Shown here: piece after piece, positions 1,754-16,421 of the stretch | How the letters are laid out: each line of letters begins with the position of its first letter | How positions within the stretch are numbered: the first letter of the stretch is position 1 | From: Roseobacter cerasinus | GTDB lineage: Bacteria; Pseudomonadota; Alphaproteobacteria; Rhodobacterales; Rhodobacteraceae | Direction of reading: 5' to 3' | DNA: 64,000 bases | Assembly (NCBI RefSeq): GCF_009811755.1 | Contig: NZ_BLIV01000001.1 | Location: 682,001 to 746,000 of the forward strand | Translations under genes and position numbers: made by a program | Notes under the pieces: model-generated | The model's database searches: none | What the model was told of the DNA's origin: nothing | The model's input: the letters and a program-made list of their open reading frames with translations, nothing else

Positions 1754-2755
1754 TTACATTTCGCTCGCAGCTTGCAGCGGGCCCGTGTTCACCGAGTCCT
1801 CATAGCTGTCGAGTGCCGACCCGATTGAACCGGCCTCCACAAACACGCCTGCCACGCCCTGCATGAAGGGGGCAGCGTTTCCGCCCAACCACTTCTCGGA
1901 AAGCTGTTCTTCAATCGAGGGGAAGGTAAATCCGCCAATGGCGGTGCGCGCGGCGTCGAGATCCATACCGGCCTGCTGTGCAATCACAGACAGCATCTCT
2001 TCGCTTTGGTTCGCGGTCCAGTCGGCATTGGCATCTGCGGTGACTTTGAGGAATTTGGCCACGACATCGCCGTTCTCCGCGATGAAGGACGCCGGTGCCG
2101 ATGTGACATCAAACACAAGAATACCAAGCTCTTCCTTTTCCGCGCCGGTCAACAGCACGTTGCCATATTCCATCATCCGGCCCAGGCCACCGCCAAAACC
2201 ACAGGCGAAATCCACAGCCTTCTGGCTCAAAGCGGCTGCACCCTCTGGCGGCGCCATGTCCACGACCTGTAGGGTGGATACATCAACACCGAAATGGTCC
2301 ATCTGCCGCAGGAAGCCGTAGTGCGCGGCTGTCCCCAGCGGCACGGCCACTTTCTTGCCTGCCAGCTCACCAGCGGTCTCCTTGTCGATCTCCAGATCAG
2401 CATGCACAACGCAGTTGTCGTTCTCCGAATAGGATACGGCCACATCCACTGTCTGAATGTCCTGGCCGCCGGAGGTCGCAATCACGAAAGGCGGCACACC
2501 CTGCGAGACAGACATCTGCACGTCACCCGACGCCATTGCTGCCGACATCGCCGTGCCGGTTTCGAACGACACCCAGTTCACTTTCATCCCCAGCGCTTCA
2601 TCATAAGCACCGGAGGCTTTGGCCGCCAGGAACGGCATCGGCCACTCAAGGAAGTAGCCAATGGTGATCTCACCATGGCCATCCGCCGCCGCACTCTGCA
2701 CGCTCAGCGCCATCACGGCACCTGCTACAAAAGCACATGTTGTCTTCTTGATCAT
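1754..2755 (-). CDS. tauA: Taurine-binding periplasmic protein TauA
   Basis: Substrate-binding protein of the taurine ABC importer, 333 residues. I chose the ATG at 2755 because it gives a clean signal peptide (MIKKTTCAFVAGAVMALSVQ, cut near SAAA) and has GGGAGAACGAA just upstream. A longer upstream reading adds 19 non-conserved residues. The mature part starts ITIGYFLEWPMPF and carries AMASGDVQMSVSQGVPP, typical of the TauA/SsuA/NMT1-like fold. It is the first gene of tauABC, with two hairpins behind it. A related sulfonate or other substrate is possible, but the catabolic neighbours favour taurine. Confidence 0.92.
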   Translation of the reverse strand: MIKKTTCAFVAGAVMALSVQSAAADGHGEITIGYFLEWPMPFLAAKASGAYDEALGMKVNWVSFETGTAMSAAMASGDVQMSVSQGVPPFVIATSGGQDIQTVDVAVSYSENDNCVVHADLEIDKETAGELAGKKVAVPLGTAAHYGFLRQMDHFGVDVSTLQVVDMAPPEGAAALSQKAVDFACGFGGGLGRMMEYGNVLLTGAEKEELGILVFDVTSAPASFIAENGDVVAKFLKVTADANADWTANQSEEMLSVIAQQAGMDLDAARTAIGGFTFPSIEEQLSEKWLGGNAAPFMQGVAGVFVEAGSIGSALDSYEDSVNTGPLQAASEM

Positions 2756-3076
2756 TTCGTTCTCCCGTTGATCATACGCCAGCCCTTCCAGACCGGCCTT
2801 CATTTGGTGCACTGCGGCTTGTCACCGCCATTGCTCTTCGTTTGCACGTGAATATCCAATGTCAGAAATGCACTGCCTGCAAGAGCATTATTGATACAAA
2901 ACTGTCATTCGGATGAAACTGCCCGAAAAATGCGCCTCTCTTCTTATCTGCCTGCAGAAAACTGCAAACCCTTGAAAAACAAGATTTCAATTTCCCGAAG
3001 CCAAACCGCTGTTCTGGCCGTTTGTGCGCGCATAGTGGCGTGGGATACCCCAGAGAAAACGTCCACTTTTGCCTCC

Positions 3077-3410
3077 TCAATGAGTCCAGTTTTTACCTGA
3101 GGCATCCGCCTTCCAGTCCATCTGATCGCGCAGGCCCAGCGTCACCACCGGCAGTACCGGGTTCACCTGAGTTCCATGACATCCCCTAGCCCCAAAGCCC
3201 ACGCCCCCCGTCTCGAAAGCGGAGACCACGTGACCCAGCGTCGGGCGCGGTCACCCGCCAAAGTGCGTCAGGGATCTGCATCAGCCATCCGTCGCTCACA
3301 AAAGCGGCACCGGTCAACGGGGCCAAAAGACTGCAGATTTGACGCGGGCGGCTCAATTGGCCCACAATAACAGGGCGATGCGACCGATATCGCTTGATTG
3401 CGCCCAGCAT
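3077..3410 (-). pseudogene. Decayed coding remnant between tauA and tpa, family not recognised
   Basis: The 780-bp tauA-tpa gap contains no intact gene. On the minus strand two neighbouring frames look coding by codon choice. The first begins at 3410 and includes PLTGAAFVSDGWLMQIPDAL before degenerating near 3240. The second, in another frame, includes NPVLPVVTLGLRDQMDWKAD and ends at a TGA at 3077-3079. The two frames differ by one position, as if joined by a frameshift. I cannot name the family. The rest of the gap (2756-3076 and 3411-3535) carries the tauA and tpa control regions. Confidence 0.3.
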
Positions 3411-3440
3411 CTGGATCTATCGTTGCAGCACATCTGGCCC
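3408..3440 (+). promoter_or_regulatory. Putative TauR operator upstream of tpa (direct repeat)
   Basis: Two half-sites, CATCTGGATCTA (3408-3419) and CATCTGGCCC (3431-3440), put CTGG cores exactly 23 bp apart, about two helical turns. They end about 95 bp before the tpa start. The same arrangement, with nearly the same bases, lies before xsc. MocR-type regulators such as TauR, GabR and PdxR are known to bind direct repeats. Assignment to TauR is inferred from the shared pattern. Confidence 0.55.
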
Positions 3441-3535
3441 TACTGCGGGTGCCACAAAAACAGTCATGTCAGCCAAATCCGGATTGCTCGCCATCCGATT
3501 TCACCTGATTCTACGCCAACAGAAAGGCCCGACCC

Positions 3536-4930
3536 ATGGACGGTAATTTCAACGAGAACGACCTCAGCCGCGTCGTCGAAGCGGACCGCGCAAATGTCTG
3601 GCACCACCTGATCCAGCACCAGCCTTTCTTTACAGGCGCTGATCCCAAGATCATCATCGAAGGCAAGGGCCTGCGGGTCTGGGACCAGAAGGGCATCGAG
3701 CACATCGACGCTGTCTCGGGCGGTGTCTGGACAGTCAACGTGGGCTATGGCCGCGAGAGCATGGGCGACGCGGTGCGCGACGCCATCGTGAAAATGAACT
3801 TCTTTGGCGGCACCGTGGGCTCGATCCCCGGCGCGCTCTTTGCCGAAAAGCTTCTGACCAAGATGCCCGGGCTCGACCGCGTCTACTATGCCAACTCCGG
3901 CTCCGAGGCGAATGAGAAGGCCTTCAAGATGGTCCGCCAGATCGCGCACAAGCGCTATGGCGGCAAGAAGCACAAGATCCTCTACCGTGATCGCGACTAC
4001 CACGGCACCACCATTGCCTGCCTCTCAGCGGGTGGCCAGGATGAGCGCAACGCGCAGTATGGTCCTTACACGCCCGGCTTCATCCGTGTGCCGCACTGCC
4101 TGGAATACCGCAAGCACGAGCAGGAGGGCGCGCCCGAGCAGAATTACGGCGAATGGGCTGCCAATCAGATCGAAGAGATCATCCTGCGCGAAGGCCCCGA
4201 CACCGTGGGCGCGCTCTGCCTTGAGCCTATCACAGCGGGTGGCGGCGTGATTGAAGCGCCAGAAGGCTACTGGCCGCGCGTTGCCGAGATCTGCAAAAAA
4301 TACGACATCCTGCTGCACATCGACGAGGTCGTCTGCGGCGTGGGCCGGACAGGCACATGGTTCGGTTACCAGCACTACGGCATCCAGCCGGACATGGTGA
4401 CCATGGCAAAAGGTGTGGCCTCTGGCTACGCGGCGATTTCCTGCCTCGCGACCACCGAAGCCGTGTTCGACATGTTCAAGGACGACACCTCGGATCACCT
4501 CAACTACTTCCGCGACATCTCCACCTTCGGCGGCTGCACCGCAGGCCCGGCGGCGGCGCTGGAGAACATGCGCATCATCGAGGATGAAAACCTGCTCGAA
4601 AACACCACTGCCATGGGCGACTACATGCTGGGCAAGCTGGGCGAGCTGAAAGACAAGCACGCCGTCATCGGCGACGTGCGCGGCAAGGGTCTTTTCCTGG
4701 GTGCGGAGCTGGTGAAAGACCGCGAGAGCCGCGACCCGGCTGATGAGAAGATGGTGCAAGCCGTTGTTGGCGACTGCATGAAGCAGGCGGTGGTCATCGG
4801 CGCCACCAACCGCTCGCTGCCCGGCAAGAACAATACACTGTGTTTCTCACCCGCGCTGATCGCAACCAAAGACGACATCGATCAGATCTGTGCGGCGGTC
4901 GACGGCGCACTGACCCGCGTCTTTGGCTAA
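3536..4930 (+). CDS. tpa: Taurine:pyruvate aminotransferase
   Basis: Cytoplasmic PLP enzyme that transfers the amino group of taurine to pyruvate, giving sulfoacetaldehyde and alanine. At 464 residues it is a class III aminotransferase of normal length. Visible features are the NSGSEANEKAFK cofactor-phosphate region, the conserved Asp at about 263 in HIDEVVCGVGRTG and the Schiff-base Lys292 in MVTMAKGVASGY. The ATG at 3536 has AGAAAGG upstream. It is divergent from tauABC across a long control region. The exact amine donor cannot be proven from sequence, since beta-alanine:pyruvate enzymes are close relatives, but context with tauABC, tauR and xsc supports Tpa. Confidence 0.93.
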   Translation: MDGNFNENDLSRVVEADRANVWHHLIQHQPFFTGADPKIIIEGKGLRVWDQKGIEHIDAVSGGVWTVNVGYGRESMGDAVRDAIVKMNFFGGTVGSIPGALFAEKLLTKMPGLDRVYYANSGSEANEKAFKMVRQIAHKRYGGKKHKILYRDRDYHGTTIACLSAGGQDERNAQYGPYTPGFIRVPHCLEYRKHEQEGAPEQNYGEWAANQIEEIILREGPDTVGALCLEPITAGGGVIEAPEGYWPRVAEICKKYDILLHIDEVVCGVGRTGTWFGYQHYGIQPDMVTMAKGVASGYAAISCLATTEAVFDMFKDDTSDHLNYFRDISTFGGCTAGPAAALENMRIIEDENLLENTTAMGDYMLGKLGELKDKHAVIGDVRGKGLFLGAELVKDRESRDPADEKMVQAVVGDCMKQAVVIGATNRSLPGKNNTLCFSPALIATKDDIDQICAAVDGALTRVFG

Positions 4931-4931
4931 A

Positions 4932-6272
4932 TCATCTGTCCTCCGCGCCCCGCGCGGAGGATACCCCCGGTGCCATGGGGGCCAGGAGCGGGTTGATCCG
5001 AGCCAGCCCTGCCATTTCCTTACACATCGGCCCCGCGTCATGTTGCGTGAGCCAAGCCGTGTAGTCCTCCGGGAAGTATGCGCTCTTGCTGAGGCGTATA
5101 CCATCCCAGTCCTGCGGCAGATCGTCAGAGCGATGGAGAACAGTGACACCGTTCAACGGATCCTGTGCGTCCTGCCGCACAAGGATGTTGCCAAAGCCAG
5201 ACATCGAATGCGGCACCCTCTTGAAGAAGACCGATGTTCCGACATGCACGTGACAGTCCGCACAGAATAAGGCTGCGACATAGGACGCCTGGAAGACAAG
5301 CTTGTAGGACGCGTTGCGCAAGAAGACCGGTTCGGCGATCATAACACTGCGCAGATGCACCTCCGCTTCGATATAGGGGTGGCCAATCTCTTCAAGGATC
5401 ATCAGCGCACCTAGGGCAACACCGCCGTGGCGATCCTGGGTCAATAACCGTAGCGCCTCGATGACCCGCGCGCCCAACGCCTTGCTGGTTGTCAAAGTGA
5501 CGATCGCACCCAGCGTTGCTGTGCTCGGGTGTGAGTGCAGGATGTGATCCTGGTTGAACCCCAGTCCACACCCCTCGCGCGATGTGATTTGGCTGACTAC
5601 CGGGTCATCCACGCCCGCAACCCCGAAGGAGCGCAGCCACTCGCCCAAGGGTCGCGCGTCGATGGAGGCAAGCATCTGATCACGCAGCTGGTTCACCAGA
5701 TTCAGCGTCATGATTTCGTTCTGCATCGCCGCCGCTTGCGCCTGTTCCTGCAACCGCTGCGTCTGGCTCTCCATGAAGCGGGTCTGGGCGTCCATCAGCT
5801 CCTGTTGGGCCTGCATCACGCGGGTCTGATCCTCCAGCTTGGCTATCTGCTCGAAGAGCAGCACCGTCCCGGTGAAAGACGCAAACGCCAGCAGAAGCGC
5901 CAGCGCCGTGCCGATCACCCAGCGATAGAAATTCGACCACGCGTACCAGCCCAGCACCACCCGGGCGAGCTTGTCGGCCTCGCGCTCCGCCGCCGCCCGG
6001 TCCTGCGCCACCGCCGCCGAGACACCCGAGATCAGCGTGAACGAGATGTCCTCTACCGTCGCCTCTGCGCGGCCTGTGAGCCTGCGCAGGATCACCCCGC
6101 GAAAAAGCAGGCCGATCACCAGCAGGCCGACACAGGTGCAGATCACGATGAAAAAGGTCGCGGCCCAGTCGCGGGCAAACCCTTGCGTGACGCCCCAGGC
6201 CCCGACCGCCACAGGCACAATCACGAGGGCCGCCGCGAAAAACCCGATCCAGAACGACAGATGACGCGACAT
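4932..6272 (-). CDS. Unknown membrane protein with coiled coil and a CxxCH motif
   Basis: I do not recognise the family (446 residues). Hydrophobic segments at about 5-28, 35-57 and 118-140 suggest three membrane passes. Positive residues (RGVILRRLTGR) after the second segment would put the C-terminal two thirds in the periplasm. A glutamine-rich heptad-like stretch follows (about 143-190, with QTRVMQAQQELMDAQTRFME), predicting a coiled coil. The C-terminal domain contains FCADCHVH, so C337-x-x-C340-H341 matches a haem c attachment motif, though one such match can be chance. The gene converges on tpa and ends 2 bp from it. It breaks the tau gene set and its function is unknown. Confidence 0.8.
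   Translation of the reverse strand: MSRHLSFWIGFFAAALVIVPVAVGAWGVTQGFARDWAATFFIVICTCVGLLVIGLLFRGVILRRLTGRAEATVEDISFTLISGVSAAVAQDRAAAEREADKLARVVLGWYAWSNFYRWVIGTALALLLAFASFTGTVLLFEQIAKLEDQTRVMQAQQELMDAQTRFMESQTQRLQEQAQAAAMQNEIMTLNLVNQLRDQMLASIDARPLGEWLRSFGVAGVDDPVVSQITSREGCGLGFNQDHILHSHPSTATLGAIVTLTTSKALGARVIEALRLLTQDRHGGVALGALMILEEIGHPYIEAEVHLRSVMIAEPVFLRNASYKLVFQASYVAALFCADCHVHVGTSVFFKRVPHSMSGFGNILVRQDAQDPLNGVTVLHRSDDLPQDWDGIRLSKSAYFPEDYTAWLTQHDAGPMCKEMAGLARINPLLAPMAPGVSSARGAEDR
4939..4961. terminator. Hairpin at the tpa / membrane-protein convergence
   Basis: A perfect 9-bp stem, TCCTCCGCG (4939-4947) and CGCGGAGGA (4953-4961), has a 5-nt loop just after the tpa stop. It also lies within the last codons of the convergent minus-strand gene. 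A CCCCC/GGGGG stem follows at about 4964-4982. There is no clear T tract, so function as a terminator is likely but not shown. Confidence 0.55.
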
Positions 6273-6450
6273 GGCATTCCCAAGTTGACCCTCGCCGCCG
6301 CAACTCTGCCACAGCCACGCAAAACGGCCAAAACCAAATCGCTTGCCCCCCGCATCGGCGTCTTTCCGCGCGCCACCTGGTCACGGCGCATTTCAAACGG
6401 AACCTCCCATGAGACGGCACGTTGAGAGGTCAGTGTAAAGGAGTAAGCGA

Positions 6451-6714
6451 ATGCGTAAGATTGTTCTCACATTGCCGCTGATCGCGGCGGTTGCGGCCTG
6501 CGCCACGCAGGATCAAAACACCATCGCGGGCACACTCGGCGGGGCTGCGGCTGGGTATGCTCTGGATGACAACGACCGTGGTCGGGGCGCGCTGGTCGGC
6601 GCCGCCGCTGGCGCCATCGCAGGCAACCAGCTTGTCCGCCCGACCGGTACAAACAGCCGCAACTGCACTTATCAGAACCCGGACGGCTCCCGCTACACGG
6701 CGGCCTGTCCCTGA
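6451..6714 (+). CDS. Small glycine-zipper outer-membrane lipoprotein
   Basis: An 87-residue protein with a lipoprotein signal (AAVAAC, Cys near residue 17). Two Gly/Ala-rich zipper segments follow (TLGGAAAGYA and ALVGAAAGAIAGNQL), resembling the 2TM glycine-zipper family (OsmB/SlyB/YmgG-like). The tail holds two further cysteines (NCTYQ and AACP). The strong ribosome site AAAGGAG lies before the ATG at 6451. Such proteins sit in the envelope and often respond to stress, but no precise role can be given. Confidence 0.8.
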   Translation: MRKIVLTLPLIAAVAACATQDQNTIAGTLGGAAAGYALDDNDRGRGALVGAAAGAIAGNQLVRPTGTNSRNCTYQNPDGSRYTAACP

Positions 6715-6721
6715 TGCGGCA

Positions 6722-6759
6722 CCCGCGGGCCGGGGCTGTCCCTCTCCCCGGCCCGCGGG
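6722..6759. terminator. Strong bidirectional stem-loop
   Basis: A perfect 14-bp inverted repeat, CCCGCGGGCCGGGG (6722-6735) and CCCCGGCCCGCGGG (6746-6759), has a 10-nt loop between the convergent lipoprotein and DUF465 genes. It is very GC-rich and lacks a T tract. A two-way terminator is the simplest reading. Confidence 0.65.
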
Positions 6760-6774
6760 CTGTCCGCCCGCAGG

Positions 6775-7014
6775 TCAGACCATAGCCAGTTGACCAGCTA
6801 TTTCGTCCTTCAGATGCAGGCGCTCCTTGCGCATCTCCAGCATGTGGAAATCATCCGTCGGCTCCACATTGGTTTCGGCCCTATGGATGGCGCGGTTCAG
6901 CGCATGATAACTGTCCAAAAGCTTCCTGAAGCGCGGATCAATCAGCTTTCGCGCGCCGATCTGCTGCGCGCGATCAGGGAACTCTTCATAGACATTATGG
7001 GGGACGTGGCTCAT
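6775..7014 (-). CDS. DUF465 (YdcH-like) small protein
   Basis: A 79-residue, charged, helical protein. HMLEMRKERLHLKDEI near the C-terminus is the signature region of the DUF465/YdcH family. The N-terminal part (FRKLLDSYHALNRAIHRAE) should form a helix that pairs with it as a hairpin. No biochemical function is established for the family. It lies 17 bp behind ppk2 on the same strand and may be co-transcribed. Confidence 0.85.
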   Translation of the reverse strand: MSHVPHNVYEEFPDRAQQIGARKLIDPRFRKLLDSYHALNRAIHRAETNVEPTDDFHMLEMRKERLHLKDEIAGQLAMV

Positions 7015-7031
7015 GTCGATCTCCTTTTTTC

Positions 7032-7919
7032 TTATGTACGACGTCGGGATTTGGGGTGCAGGGAGGACGCCAGGATGTGGTCCGATGAATGAACCACATG
7101 GCTCGCGGTACGCACGATCAGCGGGTCAGGCGCAACAGCAACAGCCTCATCCCGATCCGGATAATCAAAGGCGGCGAGGAAGTGCCTCATGCAGTTCAGC
7201 CGCGCCCGCTTCTTATCGTTAGAGCGGATGACCGTCCAAGGCGCATCAGCCGTGTCGGTGTAGAAGAACATGGCCTCCTTTGCCTCGGTATAGTCGTCCC
7301 ATTTGTCCAGACTGGCCCGGTCAATGGGTGAGAGCTTCCATTGCTTCAAAGGGTCGGTCTCGCGTGAGGTAAACCGCGCGCGCTGCTCGGCGCGCGTGAC
7401 CGAAAACCAGTATTTGAACAAACGAATGCCCGAGCGTGTCAGCATCCGCTCGAACTTCGGGGTCTGACGCATGAACTCCAGATAATCGCCCGGCGCGCAA
7501 AAGTTCATCACCCGCTCGACGCCCGCACGGTTGTACCAGCTGCGGTCATAGAGCACGACCTCGCCATCCGTTGGCAAATGCTTGATGTAGCGCTGAAAAA
7601 ACCACTGGCCGCGTTCTTCGTCCGTGGGCTTATTCAGCGCTACGACACGCGCCTGCCGGGGGTTGAGATGCTCCATGAACCGTTTGATGGTGCCACCCTT
7701 GCCCGCAGCATCGCGGCCCTCAAAGAGCATCACCACCTTCTGCCCGGTCTCGTGCAGCCAGTGCTGCACCTTGAGCAGTTCGACCTGGAGCGCGGCTTTC
7801 TCCGCCTCGTACCGGGCGCGATCAAGCTTGGTGTCGTAGGGGTAATCTTCCTGTTCAAACCCTAGTCCCGCAACAGCAGCGGGATCCGGACCTGATTTTT
7901 CCAGAACCGCATCTTTCAT
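7032..7919 (-). CDS. ppk2: Polyphosphate kinase 2
   Basis: Single-domain PPK2, 295 residues, transferring phosphate between polyphosphate and nucleotides. The Walker A-like MLFEGRDAAGKGGTIKRF, the lid-region sequence NKPTDEERGQWFFQRY, and the Walker B-like VVLYDRSWYNRAGVERVM are all visible. Length and single domain fit class I PPK2, which mainly uses ADP or GDP. Nucleotide preference cannot be read from sequence. It is divergent from tauR, and two FNR/CRP-family-like boxes lie just upstream, hinting at control by oxygen or a related signal. Confidence 0.93.
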   Translation of the reverse strand: MKDAVLEKSGPDPAAVAGLGFEQEDYPYDTKLDRARYEAEKAALQVELLKVQHWLHETGQKVVMLFEGRDAAGKGGTIKRFMEHLNPRQARVVALNKPTDEERGQWFFQRYIKHLPTDGEVVLYDRSWYNRAGVERVMNFCAPGDYLEFMRQTPKFERMLTRSGIRLFKYWFSVTRAEQRARFTSRETDPLKQWKLSPIDRASLDKWDDYTEAKEAMFFYTDTADAPWTVIRSNDKKRARLNCMRHFLAAFDYPDRDEAVAVAPDPLIVRTASHVVHSSDHILASSLHPKSRRRT

Positions 7920-7974
7920 GGCATTATCCTTTCGTTGAGCGCGATTCTTCTGCGCCTAAAAAACCGATCTGTCT

Positions 7975-8030
7975 CTGATATCGATCAAGGCGTGGCGCAT
8001 TTTCTGGCTCTGCGTCTTGATCAGCTGCAA
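7975..8030 (-). promoter_or_regulatory. FNR/Dnr-like boxes upstream of ppk2
   Basis: CTGAT-ATCG-ATCAA (7975-7988) differs by one base from the FNR-type palindrome TTGAT-N4-ATCAA. It lies 56 bp before the ppk2 start. A weaker copy, TTGAT-CAGC-TGCAA, is at 8017-8030, 42 bp further away. The rest of this 346-bp divergent gap (7920-8265) is partly AT-rich, notably 8100-8160, and should hold the ppk2 and tauR promoters. Confidence 0.45.
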
Positions 8031-8198
8031 AACCCCAGCCGACAATCAGAACAAGACCTTAGCAGCGCCGCCGATAGGTCCAGTCAGCCTGCGAGCGCGG
8101 TGTATATAAGACCACTTGCAATATATGAGCATAAATGATACCCATAGTTTCAATAATTAGTGTTTTGGTTTCCACGGACTGTGCATTTGGGGGGAGCT

Positions 8199-8220
8199 GT
8201 CAGGCCGTTTCGCGCCTGAC
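8199..8220. promoter_or_regulatory. Inverted repeat upstream of tauR
   Basis: GTCAGGC (8199-8205) and GCCTGAC (8214-8220) form a perfect 7-bp inverted repeat with an 8-bp spacer, ending 45 bp before the tauR start. It could be an operator or a leader hairpin. It does not resemble the direct-repeat sites before tpa and xsc, so another factor may bind it. Confidence 0.35.
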
Positions 8221-8265
8221 TAATGCCAGATTGCGATCAGTCTATATCCAGAATAGGCTGAGCAC

Positions 8266-9762
8266 ATGGCGTTGCCCGTCGAGACATTCTTTCTGCATCC
8301 TGACGCCCAGGGGACTCTGCAATCGCAGATCCAGCAGATGATTGCGCAGGGCATCCTGTCGGGTCGTTTCCAGCGCGGGGAAAAGCTGCCCTCGACGCGT
8401 AAGCTTGCGACCCATCTCGGCGTCAGCCGCATCACCGTCACCATCGCCTATACCGAGCTTCTGGCCAATGATTATCTGACGTCGCGGGGCCGGTCCGGCT
8501 ATTTCGTGTCCGACAACGCCCCCGTGCCGCCCGCCTTCGCACCCAGCGAAGTAGGTCCCGATGCGGTCGACTGGACCCGCGCGATTGGCCAGAAATTCTC
8601 CGGCGGCGATACCGTGCGCAAGCCGCCCGATTGGGGCGGTTATCGCTATCCCTTCATCTACGGCCAGGCCGACCCCGCGCTTTTCGATCACGCCAACTGG
8701 CGGCTCTGCGCGCTGAAAGCGCTGGGGCAGAAGGATTTCACCGCGCTGACCACCGATTACTACGACCAGGACGACCCGCAGCTCATCGAGTTCATCGCGC
8801 GGCACACCCTCCCGCGCCGGGGGATCACGGCGCGCCCCGAGCAGATCCTGATCACCCTGGGCGCGCAGAACGCGCTCTGGCTGACGACGCAGGTGTTGCT
8901 GACACAACGCCGCCGCGCGGCGCTGGAAGACCCCTGTTATCATGCGCTTAGGGATATCCTTAGCCAGTCACGCTGCCACGTCACCCCGGTGCGGGTTGAT
9001 GCCGACGGCATGCCGCCCGACGCGATCCCGCCCGACACGGATGTGATCTTCACCACTCCCAGCCATCAATGCCCGACCACCAACACCATGCCCATGCACC
9101 GCCGGCATGACCTGCTGGAGCGGGCCGCCGAGATGGATGCGCTGATCGTCGAAGATGACTATGAATTTGAGATGTCTTTTCTCAAAAGCCCCTCACCTGC
9201 GCTCAAGAGCCTGGATGCCGATGGCCGCGTGATCTATGTGGGCAGCTTCTCGAAATCGCTCTTCCCGGGGCTGCGGCTGGGCTATCTCGTGGGCTCCGAA
9301 CCCTTCATCCGCGAGGCCCGCGCGCTGCGCGCCAGCGTGCTGCGTCACCCGCCTGGGCACGTGCAGCGCACCGCAGCCTATTTCCTCTCGCTCGGTCATC
9401 ACGACGCGCTCATTCGTCGCATGGGGGCCGCCCTGCATGACCGGCGCGAGGTGATGGCCAAGGCAATCGCCGCAAACGATTTGCAGATCGCAGGACAGGG
9501 CGCCTACGGGGGGTCGTCCTTCTGGATGCGCGCGCCCGACACCGTCGACACGCAAGAGCTCGCCCGCCGCCTACAGGCCAAAGGTGTTCTCATCGAATCC
9601 GGACACGCCTTCTTTTCCGGCCCCACCCGCCCCAAAAGCTACTATCGACTGGCCTATTCCTCGATCCCGGCGAACCGGATCACCAAAGGCATCGATGTGG
9701 TCGCAGGCGAGATCCGCGACATGGCCCATCTGGGTCTAAGCGAAGCCATTAACTGGCCCTAA
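8266..9762 (+). CDS. tauR: MocR/GntR-type transcriptional regulator TauR
   Basis: A 498-residue MocR-type regulator. It has an N-terminal GntR winged helix (GEKLPSTRKLATHLGVSRIT, about residues 39-58) joined to a fold-type I aminotransferase-like domain. The PLP-binding lysine is expected in YVGSFSKSLFPGLRLGYL, and the Asp is in IVEDDYEFEM. It is expected to sense taurine or its PLP adduct and activate taurine genes, as shown for TauR in related alphaproteobacteria. It sits 70 bp upstream of xsc on the same strand. The last dozen codons contain a putative TauR operator for xsc. Confidence 0.9.
   Translation: MALPVETFFLHPDAQGTLQSQIQQMIAQGILSGRFQRGEKLPSTRKLATHLGVSRITVTIAYTELLANDYLTSRGRSGYFVSDNAPVPPAFAPSEVGPDAVDWTRAIGQKFSGGDTVRKPPDWGGYRYPFIYGQADPALFDHANWRLCALKALGQKDFTALTTDYYDQDDPQLIEFIARHTLPRRGITARPEQILITLGAQNALWLTTQVLLTQRRRAALEDPCYHALRDILSQSRCHVTPVRVDADGMPPDAIPPDTDVIFTTPSHQCPTTNTMPMHRRHDLLERAAEMDALIVEDDYEFEMSFLKSPSPALKSLDADGRVIYVGSFSKSLFPGLRLGYLVGSEPFIREARALRASVLRHPPGHVQRTAAYFLSLGHHDALIRRMGAALHDRREVMAKAIAANDLQIAGQGAYGGSSFWMRAPDTVDTQELARRLQAKGVLIESGHAFFSGPTRPKSYYRLAYSSIPANRITKGIDVVAGEIRDMAHLGLSEAINWP
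9727..9761 (+). promoter_or_regulatory. Putative TauR operator for xsc inside the tauR 3' end
   Basis: CATCTGGGTCTA (9727-9738) and ACTGGCCCTA (9752-9761) repeat the tpa operator with CTGG cores again 23 bp apart. Between the two sites the conserved bases are CATCTGG, TCTA, and CTGGCCCTA. The site encodes the last TauR residues and overlaps its stop codon. It ends 72 bp before the xsc start. TauR binding is inferred. Confidence 0.55.
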
Positions 9763-9832
9763 CGACCCTTAACGCAACCCTCTAAGTAACCCCCAGCCCA
9801 GAATCACCACTGATCAATCAAGGAAACGCCCG

Positions 9833-11611
9833 ATGAAAATGACAACTGAAGAAGCCTTTGTAAAAACGCTGCAATCGCATGGCATCGAACATGCCTTCGG
9901 GATCATCGGCTCCGCCATGATGCCGATCTCCGACATCTTCCCCGACGCAGGCATCACCTTCTGGGACTGCGCGCATGAAGGCTCCGCCGGCATGATGTCG
10001 GATGGCTACACCCGCGCCACCGGCAAAATGTCGATGATGATCGCGCAGAACGGCCCCGGCATCACCAACTTCGTGACCGCCGTGAAAACTGCCTACTGGA
10101 ACCACACGCCCTGCCTGCTCGTCACACCGCAGGCCGCCAACAAGACCATCGGTCAGGGCGGCTTCCAGGAGATGGAACAGATGCACCTCTTCGCTGACTG
10201 CGTGGCCTATCAGGAAGAAGTGCGTGACCCCTCGCGCATCGCCGAAACTCTGGCCCGCGTGATCGCCAAGGCCAAGCGTCTGTCTGGCCCGGCGCAAATC
10301 AACATCCCACGGGACTTCTGGACGCAAGTTGTGGACATCGAGATCCCCGACCCGATCGAGTTCGAAGTCTCCCCCGGTGGTGAAAACTCCGTCGCCAAAG
10401 CGGCCGAGATCCTGTCAAATGCGAAAAACCCCGTCATCCTGAACGGCGCTGGAGTGGTTCTGTCCAAAGGCGGCATCGAAGCCTCCAAGGTTCTGGCCGA
10501 ACGTCTCGAAGCGCCGGTCTGCGTGGGCTACCAGCACAACGACGCCTTCCCCGGCAACCACCCGCTTTTCGCCGGCCCGCTGGGCTACAACGGCTCCAAG
10601 GCCGGGATGCAGCTGATCAAGGAAGCGGACGTTGTGCTTTGCCTCGGCACCCGCCTGAACCCCTTCTCCACCCTTCCCGGCTACGGCATCGAGTACTGGC
10701 CTGCGGATGCGAAAATCATCCAGGTGGACATCAACCCCGACCGCATCGGCCTGACCAAGAAGGTCACCGTCGGCATCGTGGGTGACGCCGCCAAAGTGGC
10801 CAACGGCATCCTCGCGCAGCTCTCCGACACCGCCGGCGACGAAGGCCGCGCCGAGCGCAAAGCGCATATTGCCCAGACCAAATCCGCCTGGGCGCAGGAA
10901 CTGACCTCGCTCACACACGAGCAGGACGACCCCGGCACCGACTGGAACGTGCGTGCCCGCGCCGCCAAGCCGGACTGGATGAGCCCGCGCATGGCATGGC
11001 GTGCGATCCAGGCCGCGCTGCCGGTTGAGGCGATCATCTCGTCGGACATCGGCAACAACTGCGCCATTGGCAACGCCTACCCGTCTTTCGAGGAAGGCCG
11101 CAAGTACCTGGCCCCCGGCCTCTTCGGCCCCTGTGGCTACGGTCTGCCTGCCATCGTGGGTGCCAAGATCGGCCAGCCGGACGTGCCGGTTGTGGGCTTC
11201 GCGGGTGACGGCGCCTTCGGCATCGCGGTGAACGAGCTGACGGCGATTGGCCGCGGCGAATGGCCTGCGATCACGCAAATCGTCTTCCGCAACTACCAGT
11301 GGGGCGCGGAAAAGCGGAACTCCACGCTGTGGTTCGATGACAACTTCGTCGGCACCGAGCTGGACACCGAGGTCTCCTATGCCGGGATCGCGCAAGCTTG
11401 TGGTCTGAAAGGTGTGGTCGCCCGCACCCAGGAAGAGCTGACCGCCGCGCTGAACCAGGCGATCAAGGATCAGATGGAGAACGGTGTGACCACGCTGATC
11501 GAAGCCATGATCAACCAGGAGCTGGGGGATCCGTTCCGCCGTGACGCGATGAAGAAGCCTGTCGAGGTTGCTGGCATCAGCAAAGACGACATGCGTCCGC
11601 AAACCGTCTAA
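9833..11611 (+). CDS. xsc: Sulfoacetaldehyde acetyltransferase
   Basis: Thiamine-diphosphate enzyme that converts sulfoacetaldehyde and phosphate to acetyl phosphate and sulfite in the cytoplasm. The 592 residues match the family. It has the acetolactate-synthase-like layout: an N-terminal pyrimidine-binding domain with AFGIIGSAMMP and the Glu of CAHEGSAGMMSDGYTRA, a middle domain, and a C-terminal domain with the GDGAFG...N cofactor motif (GFAGDGAFGIAVNELTAIG to FRNYQWGAEK). AAGGAAACG precedes the ATG. Long perfect stretches such as YWNHTPCLLVTPQAANKTIG are characteristic of Xsc rather than acetolactate synthase. It leads the xsc-pta-soe gene run. Confidence 0.96.
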   Translation: MKMTTEEAFVKTLQSHGIEHAFGIIGSAMMPISDIFPDAGITFWDCAHEGSAGMMSDGYTRATGKMSMMIAQNGPGITNFVTAVKTAYWNHTPCLLVTPQAANKTIGQGGFQEMEQMHLFADCVAYQEEVRDPSRIAETLARVIAKAKRLSGPAQINIPRDFWTQVVDIEIPDPIEFEVSPGGENSVAKAAEILSNAKNPVILNGAGVVLSKGGIEASKVLAERLEAPVCVGYQHNDAFPGNHPLFAGPLGYNGSKAGMQLIKEADVVLCLGTRLNPFSTLPGYGIEYWPADAKIIQVDINPDRIGLTKKVTVGIVGDAAKVANGILAQLSDTAGDEGRAERKAHIAQTKSAWAQELTSLTHEQDDPGTDWNVRARAAKPDWMSPRMAWRAIQAALPVEAIISSDIGNNCAIGNAYPSFEEGRKYLAPGLFGPCGYGLPAIVGAKIGQPDVPVVGFAGDGAFGIAVNELTAIGRGEWPAITQIVFRNYQWGAEKRNSTLWFDDNFVGTELDTEVSYAGIAQACGLKGVVARTQEELTAALNQAIKDQMENGVTTLIEAMINQELGDPFRRDAMKKPVEVAGISKDDMRPQTV

Positions 11612-11656: not shown

Positions 11657-12655
11657 ATGAGCGTACTGAGCGCATTGACCGACCGCGCCACCGCCCGGCC
11701 TGCCCATATCGTAATGAGCGAAGGCCACGATCCCCGGATCGTGGCTGGAGCCATTGCCGCTGTCACAGCTGGCACCGCCCGCATTACCCTGGTCGGCCAA
11801 CACGACGATGTTGCCGCCCAACTCGTCGCTGCGGGCACGCCCAGCCACCCCAACATCGCCATTGAAGACCCGGCCACCTCCGCGTTGAGCGGCGATCTGG
11901 CAACGGCCTTCTATGAGCTCCGCAAGCACAAAGGCGTCACACCCGAGATCGCCGAGCAACAGGTGAAGAACCCGCTTGTCTTCGCCGCCCTAATGGTCCG
12001 TGAGGGCCACGCCGACGGCACCGTTGGCGGCGCCATCCACACCACCTCCGACACCGTGCGCGCCGCCTTGCAGGTCATCGGCAAGGCCAAAGACGCACCG
12101 CTTGTCTCCAGCTTCTTCCTGATGGCCCTGACAGAAGGCCATCCCTCAGGCCGCGACGCGATGATCTTCGGCGACTGTGGTCTGGTCATCGACCCGACTG
12201 CCGAGGAACTCGCCGCCATTGCCGTGGCCTCCGCCACCTCCTGCCGACAGCTGCTTGACGTCGAACCGCAGGTGGCGCTGTTGTCCTTCTCCACAAAGGG
12301 GTCCGCGAAACACCCCACCGTCAGCAAAGTGGCTGAGGCAGCCGCCCTGTTGAAAACCCGGCACCCCGACCTCAAGGCCGATGGTGAGCTGCAGTTCGAC
12401 GCGGCCTTCGTGCCTGACGTCGCCGCCTCCAAAGCCCCCGGCTCCCCCACCGCCGGGCAGGCAAACGTCATGATCTTCCCCAACCTCGACGCGGGGAACA
12501 TCGGCTACAAGATCGCCCAGCGGATGGGGGGGGCGGAGGCCATCGGCCCGACGCTGCAGGGCCTCGCCAAACCCGCAAACGACCTCTCGCGCGGCTGCAC
12601 CGCCGAAGACGTCGCCAATATGATCGCCGTGACCACCCTGCAGGTCGCCCGCTAA
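11657..12655 (+). CDS. pta: Phosphate acetyltransferase
   Basis: Converts acetyl phosphate from Xsc and CoA to acetyl-CoA. At 332 residues it is the short PTA_PTB-domain form without the N-terminal regulatory region of enterobacterial Pta. It has [19 protein letters not shown], the [13 protein letters not shown] stretch and the C-terminal [20 protein letters not shown] motif, all typical of the family. AGAAAGGA lies before the ATG. It starts 45 bp after xsc and is almost certainly co-transcribed with it. Confidence 0.94.
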
Positions 12656-12673: not shown

Positions 12674-15502
12674 ATGAATCAGCCTGTCATCGACCTGAGC
12701 CCGAAAGTCTCCGACGAGGTGCGCAAGACCACCTGTTACATGTGCGCCTGCCGCTGCGGCATCAACGTGCATATGAAAGACGGCCCCGATGGCAATAGAC
12801 AGGTGGCTTACATCGAAGGCAACCGCGACCATCCGGTCAACCAAGGCGTGCTCTGCGCGAAAGGATCAGCGGGCATCATGCAGGTGAACGCCCCCTCCCG
12901 CCTGCGCAAACCACTCAAGCGCGTGGGCGAACGCGGCTCCGGCGAGTTCGAAGAGATCGAATGGGACGAGGCGCTGCAGATCGCTGCCGACTGGCTTGAA
13001 CCGGTGCGCCGAGACAACCCCGAAAAGCTCGCCTTCTTCACCGGCCGCGACCAGTCGCAATCATTCACCTCCTTCTGGGCCCAGAACTTCGGCACGCCGA
13101 ATTACGCCGCGCACGGCGGCTTCTGCTCGGTGAACATGGCAGCTGCGGGCATCTACACGATGGGCGGCGCCTTCTGGGAGTTCGGCCAGCCCGACTGGGA
13201 CCACACCAAGCTCTTCATGCTCTTCGGCGTGGCAGAAGACCACGATTCCAACCCGATCAAGATGGGCATTGGCAAGATCAAAGCACGCGGCGCCCGCGTG
13301 ATCGGCGTGAACCCCATCCGTACCGGCTACAACGCCGTGGCCGACGACTGGGTCGGCATCACGCCCGGCACCGACGGGCTCTTCATCCTGTCGATGATCC
13401 ACTGCCTGATGAAGGCCGGCAAGATCGACCTGCACTACCTGGCGCAATACACCAACGCGCCGGTGCTGGTGATCAACAACCCCGGGCAGGCCGACCACGG
13501 CCTCTTGATGCGGGACGAGAATGGCAAAGAGCTGGTGATCGACCGCGCCACCGGCGAACTCACCCCCTTCGACAAACCCGGCGTCAAACCCGACCTCGCC
13601 GCCACTTACGAGAAAGACGGCCAGACCCACCGCCCGGTCTTCCACCAGATGGCCGAGATGTATCTCGACGATCAATACGCGCCTGAGGCTGTCGCCGACC
13701 GCTGCGGCATTCCCGCCAAGCGCATCCGCGCCATCGCCGCCGAACTCGCCCGCGTCGCCTTCGAAGAATCCTTTGAGCTGGACCACGCCTGGACCGATTT
13801 CCGCGGCGAGAAGCACAACAAGATGGTGGGCCGCCCGGTCTCCTTTCACTCCATGCGCGGCATCTCCGCCCATGCCAATGGCTTCCAGACCTGCCGCGCG
13901 CTGCACACCCTGCAAATCCTCCTCGGCACAGTCGAAGTCCCCGGCGGTTTTCGCTTCAAACCACCCTACCCCAAACCCGCCACGGCGCACCCCAAGCCCC
14001 ACGTGGGCGTGACCAAAGGCGCACCGCTAAATGGCCCGCATCTGGGCTTCACCCATGGCCCGGAAGACCTGGCGCTGAAAGACGACGGCACCGCCGCCCG
14101 CATCGACAAGGCCTTCACCTGGGAAAACCCGATGTCGAGCCACGGGCTCATGCATATGGTGATCTCCAACGCCTATGCGGGGGATCCCTACAAGATCGAC
14201 GTGCTTTTCATGTACATGGCGAACATGTCGTGGAACTCGACCATGAACACCCGCGGCGTGATCGATATGCTGACGGATAAGGACGAGAACGGCGAGTATG
14301 TGATCCCCAAGATCATCTATTCTGATGCGTATAGTTCAGAAATGGTCGCCTACTCCGACCTGATCCTGCCCGACACCACGTATCTCGAACGTCACGACTG
14401 CATCTCGCTGCTGGACCGTCCGATCTGCGAGGCGGATGCCGCAGCAGACGCCATCCGTTGGCCGGTGATTGAGCCTGACCGTGACGTCAAAGGGTTCCAG
14501 TCGATGCTCTGCGAGCTTGGCGCCAAGATGAACCTGCCCGGCTTCGTGAACGAAGACGGCAGCCAGAAATACGCCGACTACGGCGACTACATCGTGAACC
14601 ATGAACGTCGCCCCGGCATTGGACCGCTGGCCGGCTTCCGGGGTGAGAATGGCGATCAGGCCGGGCGCGGGTCGGTGAACCCCAAACAGCTCGACCAATA
14701 CATCGAGAACGGCGGCTTCTTCGTCGAACACATCCCCGACGGCGCCAACTACTACAAGCCGTGGAACATGGCCTATCAGGACTGGGCGGTGCAGCTCGGC
14801 CTCTACGACGCCCCCACACCCTATCTCTTCTCGCTCTATGTCGAGCCCATGCGCAAGTTCCAGCTCGCCGCCGAAGGCTATGGGCCAATCCAACCGCCTG
14901 ACCACCTGCGCGACCGCATCATGGACACCCTCTCCCCCCTGCCCATCTGGTACTCTACGGAAGAGGACAACCACGCCGCCGACTACCCCGTCACCGCGCT
15001 GACCCAGCGCCCCATGGCGATGTACCACTCCTGGGGTTCGCAAAACGCCTGGCTGCGCCAGCTGCACGGGCACAACCCGCTCTACGTGCCCACCAAGCTG
15101 ATGCGCGAAAACGGCCTGCAGGACGGCGATTGGGCCAAGGTCACCTCGCCCCACGGCGAAATCACTGTGCCGGTGCTGGAGATGGCCGCGCTCAACGAGA
15201 ACACGATCTGGACCTGGAACGCCATCGGCAAGCGTAAGGGCGCCTGGGCGCTGGAAGAGGACGCCCCCGAAGCCACCCGCGGCTTCCTGCTCAATCACCT
15301 CATCCACGAGCTGCTGCCACCCAAAGGCGACGGTCTGAGATGGGCCAACTCCGATCCCATCACCGGCCAGGCCGCCTGGTTCGACCTCAAGGTCCGCATC
15401 GAAAAGGCCGCCGCCCACGCCGAATCCCAACCCGGTTTCGCGCCAATCAAATCTCCCGTCGGCACAGGCCCGAAAGACCTCACGTGGAAGGTGAGCAAAT
15501 GA
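12674..15502 (+). CDS. soeA: Molybdopterin oxidoreductase, sulfite-oxidising SoeA
   Basis: Catalytic subunit, 942 residues, of a DMSO-reductase-family molybdoenzyme. An N-terminal iron-sulfur site is seen as C21-x2-C24-x3-C28-x32-C61 (CYMCACRCG to LCAKG). The domain order matches formate dehydrogenase/polysulfide reductase-type large subunits, ending in a molydopterin-dinucleotide-binding domain (YHSWGSQNAWLRQLHGHNP). No Tat signal is present, so it should be cytoplasmic, as is SoeA. Its place behind xsc and pta with matching SoeB and SoeC subunits supports oxidation of taurine-derived sulfite to sulfate. A thiosulfate or polysulfide role cannot be excluded by sequence alone. Confidence 0.87.
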   Translation: MNQPVIDLSPKVSDEVRKTTCYMCACRCGINVHMKDGPDGNRQVAYIEGNRDHPVNQGVLCAKGSAGIMQVNAPSRLRKPLKRVGERGSGEFEEIEWDEALQIAADWLEPVRRDNPEKLAFFTGRDQSQSFTSFWAQNFGTPNYAAHGGFCSVNMAAAGIYTMGGAFWEFGQPDWDHTKLFMLFGVAEDHDSNPIKMGIGKIKARGARVIGVNPIRTGYNAVADDWVGITPGTDGLFILSMIHCLMKAGKIDLHYLAQYTNAPVLVINNPGQADHGLLMRDENGKELVIDRATGELTPFDKPGVKPDLAATYEKDGQTHRPVFHQMAEMYLDDQYAPEAVADRCGIPAKRIRAIAAELARVAFEESFELDHAWTDFRGEKHNKMVGRPVSFHSMRGISAHANGFQTCRALHTLQILLGTVEVPGGFRFKPPYPKPATAHPKPHVGVTKGAPLNGPHLGFTHGPEDLALKDDGTAARIDKAFTWENPMSSHGLMHMVISNAYAGDPYKIDVLFMYMANMSWNSTMNTRGVIDMLTDKDENGEYVIPKIIYSDAYSSEMVAYSDLILPDTTYLERHDCISLLDRPICEADAAADAIRWPVIEPDRDVKGFQSMLCELGAKMNLPGFVNEDGSQKYADYGDYIVNHERRPGIGPLAGFRGENGDQAGRGSVNPKQLDQYIENGGFFVEHIPDGANYYKPWNMAYQDWAVQLGLYDAPTPYLFSLYVEPMRKFQLAAEGYGPIQPPDHLRDRIMDTLSPLPIWYSTEEDNHAADYPVTALTQRPMAMYHSWGSQNAWLRQLHGHNPLYVPTKLMRENGLQDGDWAKVTSPHGEITVPVLEMAALNENTIWTWNAIGKRKGAWALEEDAPEATRGFLLNHLIHELLPPKGDGLRWANSDPITGQAAWFDLKVRIEKAAAHAESQPGFAPIKSPVGTGPKDLTWKVSK

Positions 15503-15503
15503 C

Positions 15504-15563
15504 CCTTCTTCTGGCCCAAAATATCCCGGGGGAGCGCGCAGCGCGCGCGGGGGCAGCGCCCCC
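15504..15563. repeat. Dispersed intergenic repeat, copy 1, with GC hairpin
   Basis: The 24 bases at 15504-15527 (core TTCTGGCCCAAAATATCCC) recur at 50836-50859 with one difference. Here they are followed by a GC-rich stem, GGGGGC/GCCCCC (15549-15563). The copy starts 2 bp after the soeA stop. Elements of this kind sit at 3' ends of genes in roseobacters, though that recollection needs a genome search. Confidence 0.55.
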
Positions 15564-15600
15564 AAAGCTGAACGGATCCCTACGCCACCGCGCGCCCCGC

Positions 15601-15655
15601 ACCGACGTGATACCGACGCAAAACCGACGGGATACCGATACGTCACCGACAGACC
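15601..15655 (+). repeat. Five 11-bp tandem units in the soeA-soeB gap
   Basis: ACCGAC or ACCGAT occurs at 15601, 15612, 15623, 15634 and 15645, exactly 11 bp apart. The units run ACCGACGTGAT, ACCGACGCAAA, ACCGACGGGAT, ACCGATACGTC and ACCGACAGACC. The array ends about 17 bp before the soeB start. The period puts every unit on the same face of the helix. The function is unknown. Confidence 0.7.
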
Positions 15656-15671
15656 AAAACGAGGGCCAGCC

Positions 15672-16421
15672 ATGACCACTCTGCCAGCCAAAACCGAAAA
15701 GAAACTGGGGCTCGTCATCGACCTGGATACTTGCGTCGGATGCCATGCCTGCGTGATCTCCTGCAAAGGGTGGAACACCGAAAACTACGGCGCCCCCCTC
15801 TCTGACCAGAACGCCTATGGCGCCGACAATTCCGGCACCTTCCTCAACCGTGTGCACTCCTACGAGGTGCAGCCGGCAGGGGATGCAGCGGCCCAGCTGA
15901 TCCACTTCCCCAAGTCCTGCCTGCACTGCGAGGATGCGCCCTGTGTGACCGTCTGCCCCACCGGCGCCAGCTACAAGCGCGTTGAGGATGGTATCGTTCT
16001 GGTCAACGAATCCAATTGTATAGGCTGTGGTCTTTGCGCCTGGGCCTGCCCCTACGGCGCACGTGAATTGGATCAGGCCGAAGGCGTGATGAAGAAATGC
16101 ACCCTCTGCGTTGACCGCATCTACAACGAAAACCTGCCCGAAGAAGACCGCCAGCCCGCCTGCGTGCGCACCTGCCCAGCAGGCGCGCGCCACTTCGGTG
16201 ATCTGGGGGATGAAACCAGCGACGTGAGCAAGCTCGTCGCCGAACGCGGCGGCATGGACCTGATGCCCGAACAGGGCACCAAACCAGTGAACAAATACCT
16301 GCCCCCGCGCCCCAAGGACGAGATGCCCGAATTCGACGTGCTTGCCCCCTTCCTGGAACCCGTCGCGGAAGAGCCCAAGGGCTTCCTCGGCTGGCTCGAC
16401 AAGACCCTGGAGAAACTCTGA
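15672..16421 (+). CDS. soeB: Iron-sulfur electron-transfer subunit SoeB
   Basis: A 249-residue ferredoxin-like subunit of the DmsB/PsrB type, carrying electrons from SoeA to the membrane subunit. Four cysteine clusters are visible: CVGCHACVISC, CLHCEDAPCVTVC, CIGCGLCAWAC, and CTLC with the later ACVRTC. Together they can bind four [4Fe-4S] centres. It has no signal peptide, consistent with a cytoplasmic enzyme. The start lies 169 bp after soeA, an unusually long gap that holds two repeats. Its stop overlaps the soeC start (TGATG). Confidence 0.93.
   Translation: MTTLPAKTEKKLGLVIDLDTCVGCHACVISCKGWNTENYGAPLSDQNAYGADNSGTFLNRVHSYEVQPAGDAAAQLIHFPKSCLHCEDAPCVTVCPTGASYKRVEDGIVLVNESNCIGCGLCAWACPYGARELDQAEGVMKKCTLCVDRIYNENLPEEDRQPACVRTCPAGARHFGDLGDETSDVSKLVAERGGMDLMPEQGTKPVNKYLPPRPKDEMPEFDVLAPFLEPVAEEPKGFLGWLDKTLEKL

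Follow-up and report, generated by a model that had tools for sequence, protein, structure and literature searches.

Are the two matching direct repeats that precede the taurine genes tpa and xsc in Roseobacter cerasinus operators of the regulator TauR, and does the placement of the second copy inside the end of tauR tie the regulator to its own binding site? The organosulfonate taurine is widespread, and roseobacters are important consumers of it in the sea. A 64,000-nucleotide stretch of the genome (RefSeq assembly GCF_009811755.1, contig NZ_BLIV01000001.1, positions 682,001 to 746,000 of the forward strand; hereafter the window, from whose first letter all coordinates are counted) was found to hold a taurine cluster with tauA- and tauB-like genes (minus strand), tpa, unrelated open reading frames (ORFs), tauR, xsc and pta. 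The original prediction, made from these letters alone, had proposed both the repeats and the coupling. As judged from the sequence comparisons described below, TauR very probably activates xsc, where the second box of the operator would substitute for the -35 element, and tpa, and represses its own gene via a third, reversed site. The operator inside the end of tauR looks like an accident of tight gene packing.

Two direct repeats before tpa and xsc

The repeats and the genes concerned are located as follows:
3411..3443, plus strand: predicted TauR operator before tpa, boxes CTGGATCTAT (3411-3420) and CTGGCCCTAC (3434-3443), 23 bp apart
3536..4930, plus strand: tpa, taurine:pyruvate aminotransferase (name from context; the family search gave an aminotransferase, under every curated cut-off shown)
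8266..9762, plus strand: tauR, MocR/GabR-type regulator, 498 amino acids
9730..9762, plus strand: predicted TauR operator before xsc, boxes CTGGGTCTAA (9730-9739) and CTGGCCCTAA (9753-9762)
9833..11611, plus strand: xsc, sulfoacetaldehyde acetyltransferase (TIGR03457, 906 bits, cut-off 676)

The 35-mers CATCTGGATCTATCGTTGCAGCACATCTGGCCCTA (3408-3442) and CATCTGGGTCTAAGCGAAGCCATTAACTGGCCCTA (9727-9761) were identical in 21 of 35 letters, with CTGG starting at 3411 and 3434 before tpa and at 9730 and 9753 before xsc, which is 23 bp from start to start in each. The matching repeats with CTGG cores 23 bp apart were present as first described, the end of the tpa copy being moved from 3440 to 3442, and both do lie close upstream of start codons, 93 nucleotides from the ATG of tpa (3536) and 71 nucleotides from that of xsc (9833). 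The bare pattern CTGG-N19-CTGG, with which a search of other genomes had been proposed, occurred at four places on the plus strand and three on the minus strand of the window and is unspecific. Matches to the fuller box CTGGNYYTA numbered five on the plus strand and one on the minus strand of the 64 kb, and four of the five were those of the two operators. Pairs of the form CTGGNNYTA-N13..15-CTGGNNYTA (22-24 bp apart) were found at two places in the 4.47-Mb genome, both of them here, and the pattern read backwards gave none. Scoring of the whole window on both strands (at least 24 out of 30, spacing 22 or 23 bp) returned exactly three sites: the two before tpa and xsc, and a minus-strand one at 8220-8251 that escaped both the original prediction and the strict pattern.

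Conservation of the repeats in the family

Conservation was followed in 107 genomes: that of the window, 18 others of its genus, and 88 from 88 other genera of the family. The latter comprised the 28 best-matching TauR loci and 60 others among the matches listed, which were taken by falling TauR similarity with gaps. One locus (L190) is without TauR, and genomes without xsc or tpa in the retrieved stretch were left uncounted. Sites were called with a simple box score (threshold 24, spacings of 18-28 bp allowed), both score and threshold having been chosen after the first sites had been seen. Before xsc a site was present in all 87 genomes scored, and before tpa in all 43 (window included); the spacing was 23 bp in 76 (xsc) and 37 (tpa) of these. 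With the same threshold, the controls gave a site on the wrong strand before xsc in 3 of 87 genomes, in 3 of 516 segments inside xsc and in 19 of 642 inside tauR. Counting CTGG...TA pairs before xsc in the other genera without regard to spacing yielded 39 at 23 bp, three at 22 bp, one at 21 bp and one at 44 bp, and none in the reversed sequence. In a set of 80 named loci, which partly come from the same organisms as the 107 genomes and are not independent of them, 64 of 64 xsc regions and 50 of 52 tpa regions scored at least 24.

The sites also went together with the regulator gene. The strict pattern was present in 127 of 174 tauR-positive genomes (E 1e-150, at most five candidates scored per genome) versus 18 of 121 tauR-negative genomes (by-eye tally; nominal p 4e-24, which, like the p-value for spacing given further below, ignores kinship).

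The proposed search held for tpa and xsc and gave nothing for tauA, which had likewise been named for it: no CTGG...TA pair was seen in 18 tauA upstream regions of up to 400 bp, taken from 30 loci with a TauA match after those without a settable start codon had been dropped. Bare CTGG pairs upstream of tauA in the genus amounted to one at 22 bp and one at 23 bp. Alphaproteobacterial TauR regulons include tauABC according to Suvorova and Rodionov (2016, PMC5320631; cited throughout from excerpts of the article).

Two kinds of further match were noted elsewhere in the genomes. One, an operator-like pair spaced 22 bp at G005:C1:649713-649743, lies a long way from the taurine cluster and is a possible extra TauR target. 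Matches with 24-bp spacing recurred in several genomes (G013:C1:757736, G028:C1:1136680, G053:C1:1882931, G148:C57:91310 and G117:C6:258658) and look like one conserved coding stretch rather than operators.

TauR as the probable binder

TauR of Rhodobacter capsulatus binds direct repeats of CTGGACYTAA, and in the direct repeats of MocR regulators two or three helical turns separate the copies (PMC5320631). By-eye counts of the letters in each ten-letter box that match this consensus gave 8 and 8 for the tpa site, 8 and 9 for the xsc site and 7 and 7 for the third site. The repeats here face the same side of the DNA, their spacing being close to a whole number of turns and constant in relatives, and they precede taurine genes and co-occur with tauR. 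Because the conservation, the co-occurrence and the agreement with the literature motif all point the same way, the attribution to TauR made in the original prediction is well supported: the repeats before tpa and xsc are almost certainly TauR operators, and as such belong to an already known kind of site.

The profile of the protein encoded by tauR matched full-length GabR chains (PDB 4n0b, 4mgr and 5t4j) with an E-value of 7e-63, and it has the MocR/GabR architecture of an N-terminal winged helix fused to a fold-type-I pyridoxal 5'-phosphate (PLP) domain with its lysine. The motif S-F-S-K330 was invariant in 56 aligned TauR orthologues, K330 being presumably the PLP-binding lysine.

Proteins of the TauR type may carry the name PdxR in automatic annotation. 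Second regulators related to TauR were seen in the genus, 47-49% identical in G001, G002 and G004 (loci L027, L028 and L029) and 39-40% identical in G002, G003 and G014 (loci L030, L031 and L032); they are perhaps like the TauR2 group of PMC5320631.

A third, reversed site and the promoter of tauR

The third site was absent from the original prediction. Together with the promoter elements predicted around it, it is placed as follows:
8220..8251, minus strand: third TauR operator (predicted), reversed, 22-bp spacing, boxes CTGGATATAG (8251-8242) and CTGGCATTAG (8229-8220)
8231..8236, plus strand: predicted tauR -35 hexamer TTGCGA, from position-specific conservation, lying between the boxes of that operator
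8254..8259, plus strand: predicted tauR -10 hexamer TAGGCT, 17 bp past the -35 hexamer and 6 bp ahead of the ATG

The operator ends 14 bp before the ATG of tauR. Several matches to the repeat pattern in the genomes compared had likewise turned up directly ahead of tauR on the opposite strand. A reversed site before tauR was found in 103 of the 107 genomes, compared with 2 of 107 for the opposite-strand control, and its spacing was 22 bp in 94 of the 103. In a slightly different scan, the distance from site to ATG was 13-15 bp in 80 of 102 genomes. Among the 84 genomes with a site before xsc as well, the one before tauR was the shorter in 71, the longer in 2 and of equal spacing in 11 (related genomes; nominal p 6e-19).

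Sequences of 86 other genera were aligned on the tauR ATG, leaving out loci L168 and L171, which have no ATG at the expected start. The alignment showed T at -35 in 72%, T at -34 in 71% and G at -33 in 49%, and the form TA...T at -12 in 37, at -13 in 11 and at -11 in 7 of the 86. A Shine-Dalgarno-like motif was found in 5 of 86 before tauR, against 62 of 68 before xsc and 23 of 26 before tpa. The start codon of tauR is probably right, since M1 of TauR was nearly invariant in the 56 orthologues. The named loci gave a similar picture, with the reversed site in 79 of 80 (75 of them at 22 bp), TA...T at -13 to -11 in 65 of 80 and a Shine-Dalgarno-like motif in 1 of 80. The tauR promoter is apparently sigma-70-like: 17 bp separate its two hexamers, and transcription would begin at the A of the ATG, giving a leaderless mRNA. 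With the predicted -35 hexamer between the two boxes and the proximal box in the spacer, which is the position of a repressor, the third site is predicted to serve auto-repression of tauR; MocR regulators are often auto-repressors (PMC5320631).

Position of the operators at xsc and tpa

One further element was predicted downstream of the xsc operator:
9783..9788, plus strand: predicted xsc -10-like element TAAGTA (weak), 30 bp past the start of box 2

Counted from the start of box 2, TA stood before xsc at +30 in 18 of the 19 Roseobacter genomes; of 68 other genera, 48 had it there and 13 had it at +31. A -10 element at +30 or +31 would put box 2 of xsc at about -42 to -33, over a missing -35 element, as for a class-II activator, class-II being the name for this kind of activator position. 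No such class-II arrangement was found at tpa, although the tpa operator is equally conserved.

Overlap of the xsc operator with the 3' end of tauR

The xsc copy does form the last codons and the stop of tauR, as had been pointed out: it encodes TauR residues 489-498 and the stop, read as CTG GGT CTA AGC GAA GCC ATT AAC TGG CCC TAA. Within the genus (19 genomes), box 2 supplied the tauR stop in 13, box 1 started inside tauR in 5 more, and the operator lay past the stop in 1. In 62 other genera with adjacent tauR and xsc, box 1 supplied the stop in 10, box 1 began within tauR in 8 and the operator was outside in 44; a TauR tail encoded by the operator was absent in 50 of 68 other genera. In six genera xsc is 565-1743 bp away from tauR, yet box 2 is still 80-104 bp before xsc. 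The standard deviation among the 62 adjacent genera was 12 bp for the distance from box 2 to the xsc start and 47 bp for that from the tauR stop to box 2.

That a box is often the stop of tauR follows from its letters, as CTGGNCYTAA holds TAA in one of its three frames, and when box 1 is read CTG GNN YTA the 23-bp spacing places box 2 in the TAA frame. The third codon of box 1 was CTA or TTA in 12 of the 13 Roseobacter genomes with box 2 as the stop, while these two codons made up 12 of 368 leucine codons in ten genes of the window. The retention of rare leucine codons, together with the fixed position of the operator relative to xsc, indicates that it is the DNA that is being preserved, with the protein following from it. 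The presence of the xsc operator inside tauR would then result from the tight packing of the two genes.

Alternative explanations

A resemblance due to chance, or to coincidence in the coding sequence at the end of tauR, deserves practically no credence. Only 21 of 35 letters agree and the bare pattern recurs seven times in the window, but the full form stands only at these two places of the genome and the site precedes xsc in all 87 genomes, including those where it is non-coding, and this conservation already refutes chance; a chance match was ruled out by the genome rarity, the spacing count and the controls. The sites could also be real and be bound mainly by another GntR/MocR regulator instead of the adjacent TauR, in line with the placement of the protein in the PdxR model by NCBIfam and with the second regulators of the genus (three of 19 genomes with one of 47-49% identity, three with one of 39-40%). 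This is very unlikely, considering that the next best match in the genome of the window is far weaker (E 5e-14, 34%, residues 193-345), that a site precedes tauR itself in nearly all genomes and that the motif equals the published TauR consensus. A divergent promoter upstream of tauR, served by the reversed site in place of tauR repression, would account for the orientation of the repeats, which point away from tauR, the sites of tpa and xsc being directed toward their own genes. It is nevertheless unlikely, because an xsc-like TA peak is lacking on the far side (6 of 84 at +30 and 0 of 84 at +31, versus 48 and 13 of 68 for xsc); moreover, the distance to the tauR ATG is near-fixed, the predicted -35 hexamer lies between the boxes, and the divergent ORF of the window starts about 300 bp away.

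The overlap might on the other hand be a selected coupling, in which the C-terminal tail is functional and regulator and operator evolve together, as the original prediction held. In Roseobacter, 18 of 19 genomes have the start of box 1 inside tauR, 13 of them with box 2 as the stop, and among the 62 other genera in which tauR adjoins xsc a box is also the stop in 10. The stop-in-box state changed 10 times on a tree of TauR proteins, box 1 as the stop alone 6 times and any overlap 13 times (raw change counts, gains and losses pooled, 41 of 84 inner branches well supported). Residues 481-490, directly before the last eight, were modelled with high confidence (mean predicted local distance difference test, pLDDT, 90). 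The last eight (491-498) had a mean pLDDT of 52, however, and the tail is variable even within Roseobacter; overlap is missing in 44 of 62 adjacent and all 6 non-adjacent genera, the operator keeps its distance to xsc and not to tauR, and the rare leucine codons are retained. A functional C-terminal tail was for these reasons rejected as the better reading, and selected coupling is considered most unlikely. The idea that the overlap constrains both partners stands for the DNA and falls for the tail.

Several observations weigh against activation by TauR at xsc and tpa combined with self-repression. The -10 element of xsc is weak: 31 of 68 other genera have the full form TA...T at +30 or +31, and 5 of 19 Roseobacter genomes have it at +30. 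A shared -10 before tpa was not found, since at every offset from 12 to 59 at most 3 of 24 other genera carried TA. Four of the 107 genomes were without a tauR site at the score used. The strict pattern was absent from 47 of 174 tauR-positive genomes, where boxes are degenerate, and present in 18 of 121 tauR-negative ones. The sample leans toward TauR-like proteins of about 64% identity or more. The best NCBIfam model for TauR was PdxR (360 bits, cut-off 320), for which reason the name TauR rests on context and operator; its neighbours tauA, tpa, xsc and pta do fit a TauR context.

Neighbouring genes

Two more genes of the cluster flank the region described above:
1754..2812, minus strand: tauA-like taurine-binding protein, divergent from tpa (TIGR01729, 146 bits, under the cut-off of 304)
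11657..12655, plus strand: pta, phosphate acetyltransferase (TIGR00651, 355 bits, cut-off 311)

Directly after pta, at 12674-16421, the window holds long oxidoreductase-like and ferredoxin-like ORFs (names by eye); bisC/hybA/dmsC are TauR targets in some Rhodobacterales (PMC5320631). The region between tauA and tpa had a DNA match in 10 of the 19 genomes of the genus, strongest toward the tpa end. It was considered as a possible decayed gene, for which open frames and the DNA comparison within the genus gave nothing convincing, no family search having been made.

Proposed mechanism and relation to known systems

By analogy with MocR regulators, a TauR dimer arranged head to tail would contact each CTGG box with one of its winged helices, both on one face of the DNA and roughly two turns from each other. 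At xsc, TauR together with taurine or PLP would attract RNA polymerase in a class-II-like manner, and at tpa it would use the same operator as at xsc. The reversed 22-bp operator around the predicted -35 element of the apparently leaderless tauR promoter would lead to self-repression. The xsc operator would be fixed relative to xsc, while the tauR frame runs into it and stops at the built-in TAA. The split between 22- and 23-bp spacing by role and orientation is conserved; its meaning is a proposal from these alignments. The single base pair of spacing, together with orientation, may be an instruction by which 23-bp forward sites activate and the 22-bp reversed site represses, although this is doubtful; a single regulator reading a single kind of half-site would then give two outputs, depending on the geometry of the operator.

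The sites resemble the TauR operators of R. capsulatus and the TauR regulons of PMC5320631 in their CTGGACYTAA-like repeats about two turns apart before taurine genes, with tpa, xsc and pta included. The excerpted text of that article makes no mention of the overlap with the 3' end of tauR, the 22-bp reversed tauR site or the leaderless tauR promoter. Among the papers found by literature search, none, as judged from titles and the starts of abstracts, dealt with an operator inside tauR, a leaderless tauR or 22- versus 23-bp TauR sites; the main experimental study, Wiethaus et al. 2008, may describe part of this. GabR of Bacillus subtilis is like TauR in its MocR architecture and direct-repeat operators, and unlike it in DNA sequence and effector. 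It activates catabolic genes and represses its own gene (PMC5320631). TauR would split activation and self-repression over separate sites of different spacing. EnuR/EutR of Ruegeria pomeroyi is likewise a roseobacter MocR/GabR regulator (PMC8739950, from excerpts), and its predicted operators overlap the -35 and -10 elements (17 bp apart) of the promoter that it represses. EnuR differs in using inverted repeats (ATTGT-N6-ACAAT) and repressing catabolic genes, whereas the repeats of TauR are direct and its described role toward such genes is that of an activator.

The definition of the site is specific enough for a genome-wide search for TauR targets, and the idea of the tauR overlap as functional coupling is corrected. 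An operator that repeatedly supplies the stop codon of its own regulator is a small, clean example of a DNA constraint shaping the end of a protein. The conserved tauR site with its other spacing makes it directly testable whether MocR regulators choose between activation and repression by one base pair and orientation.

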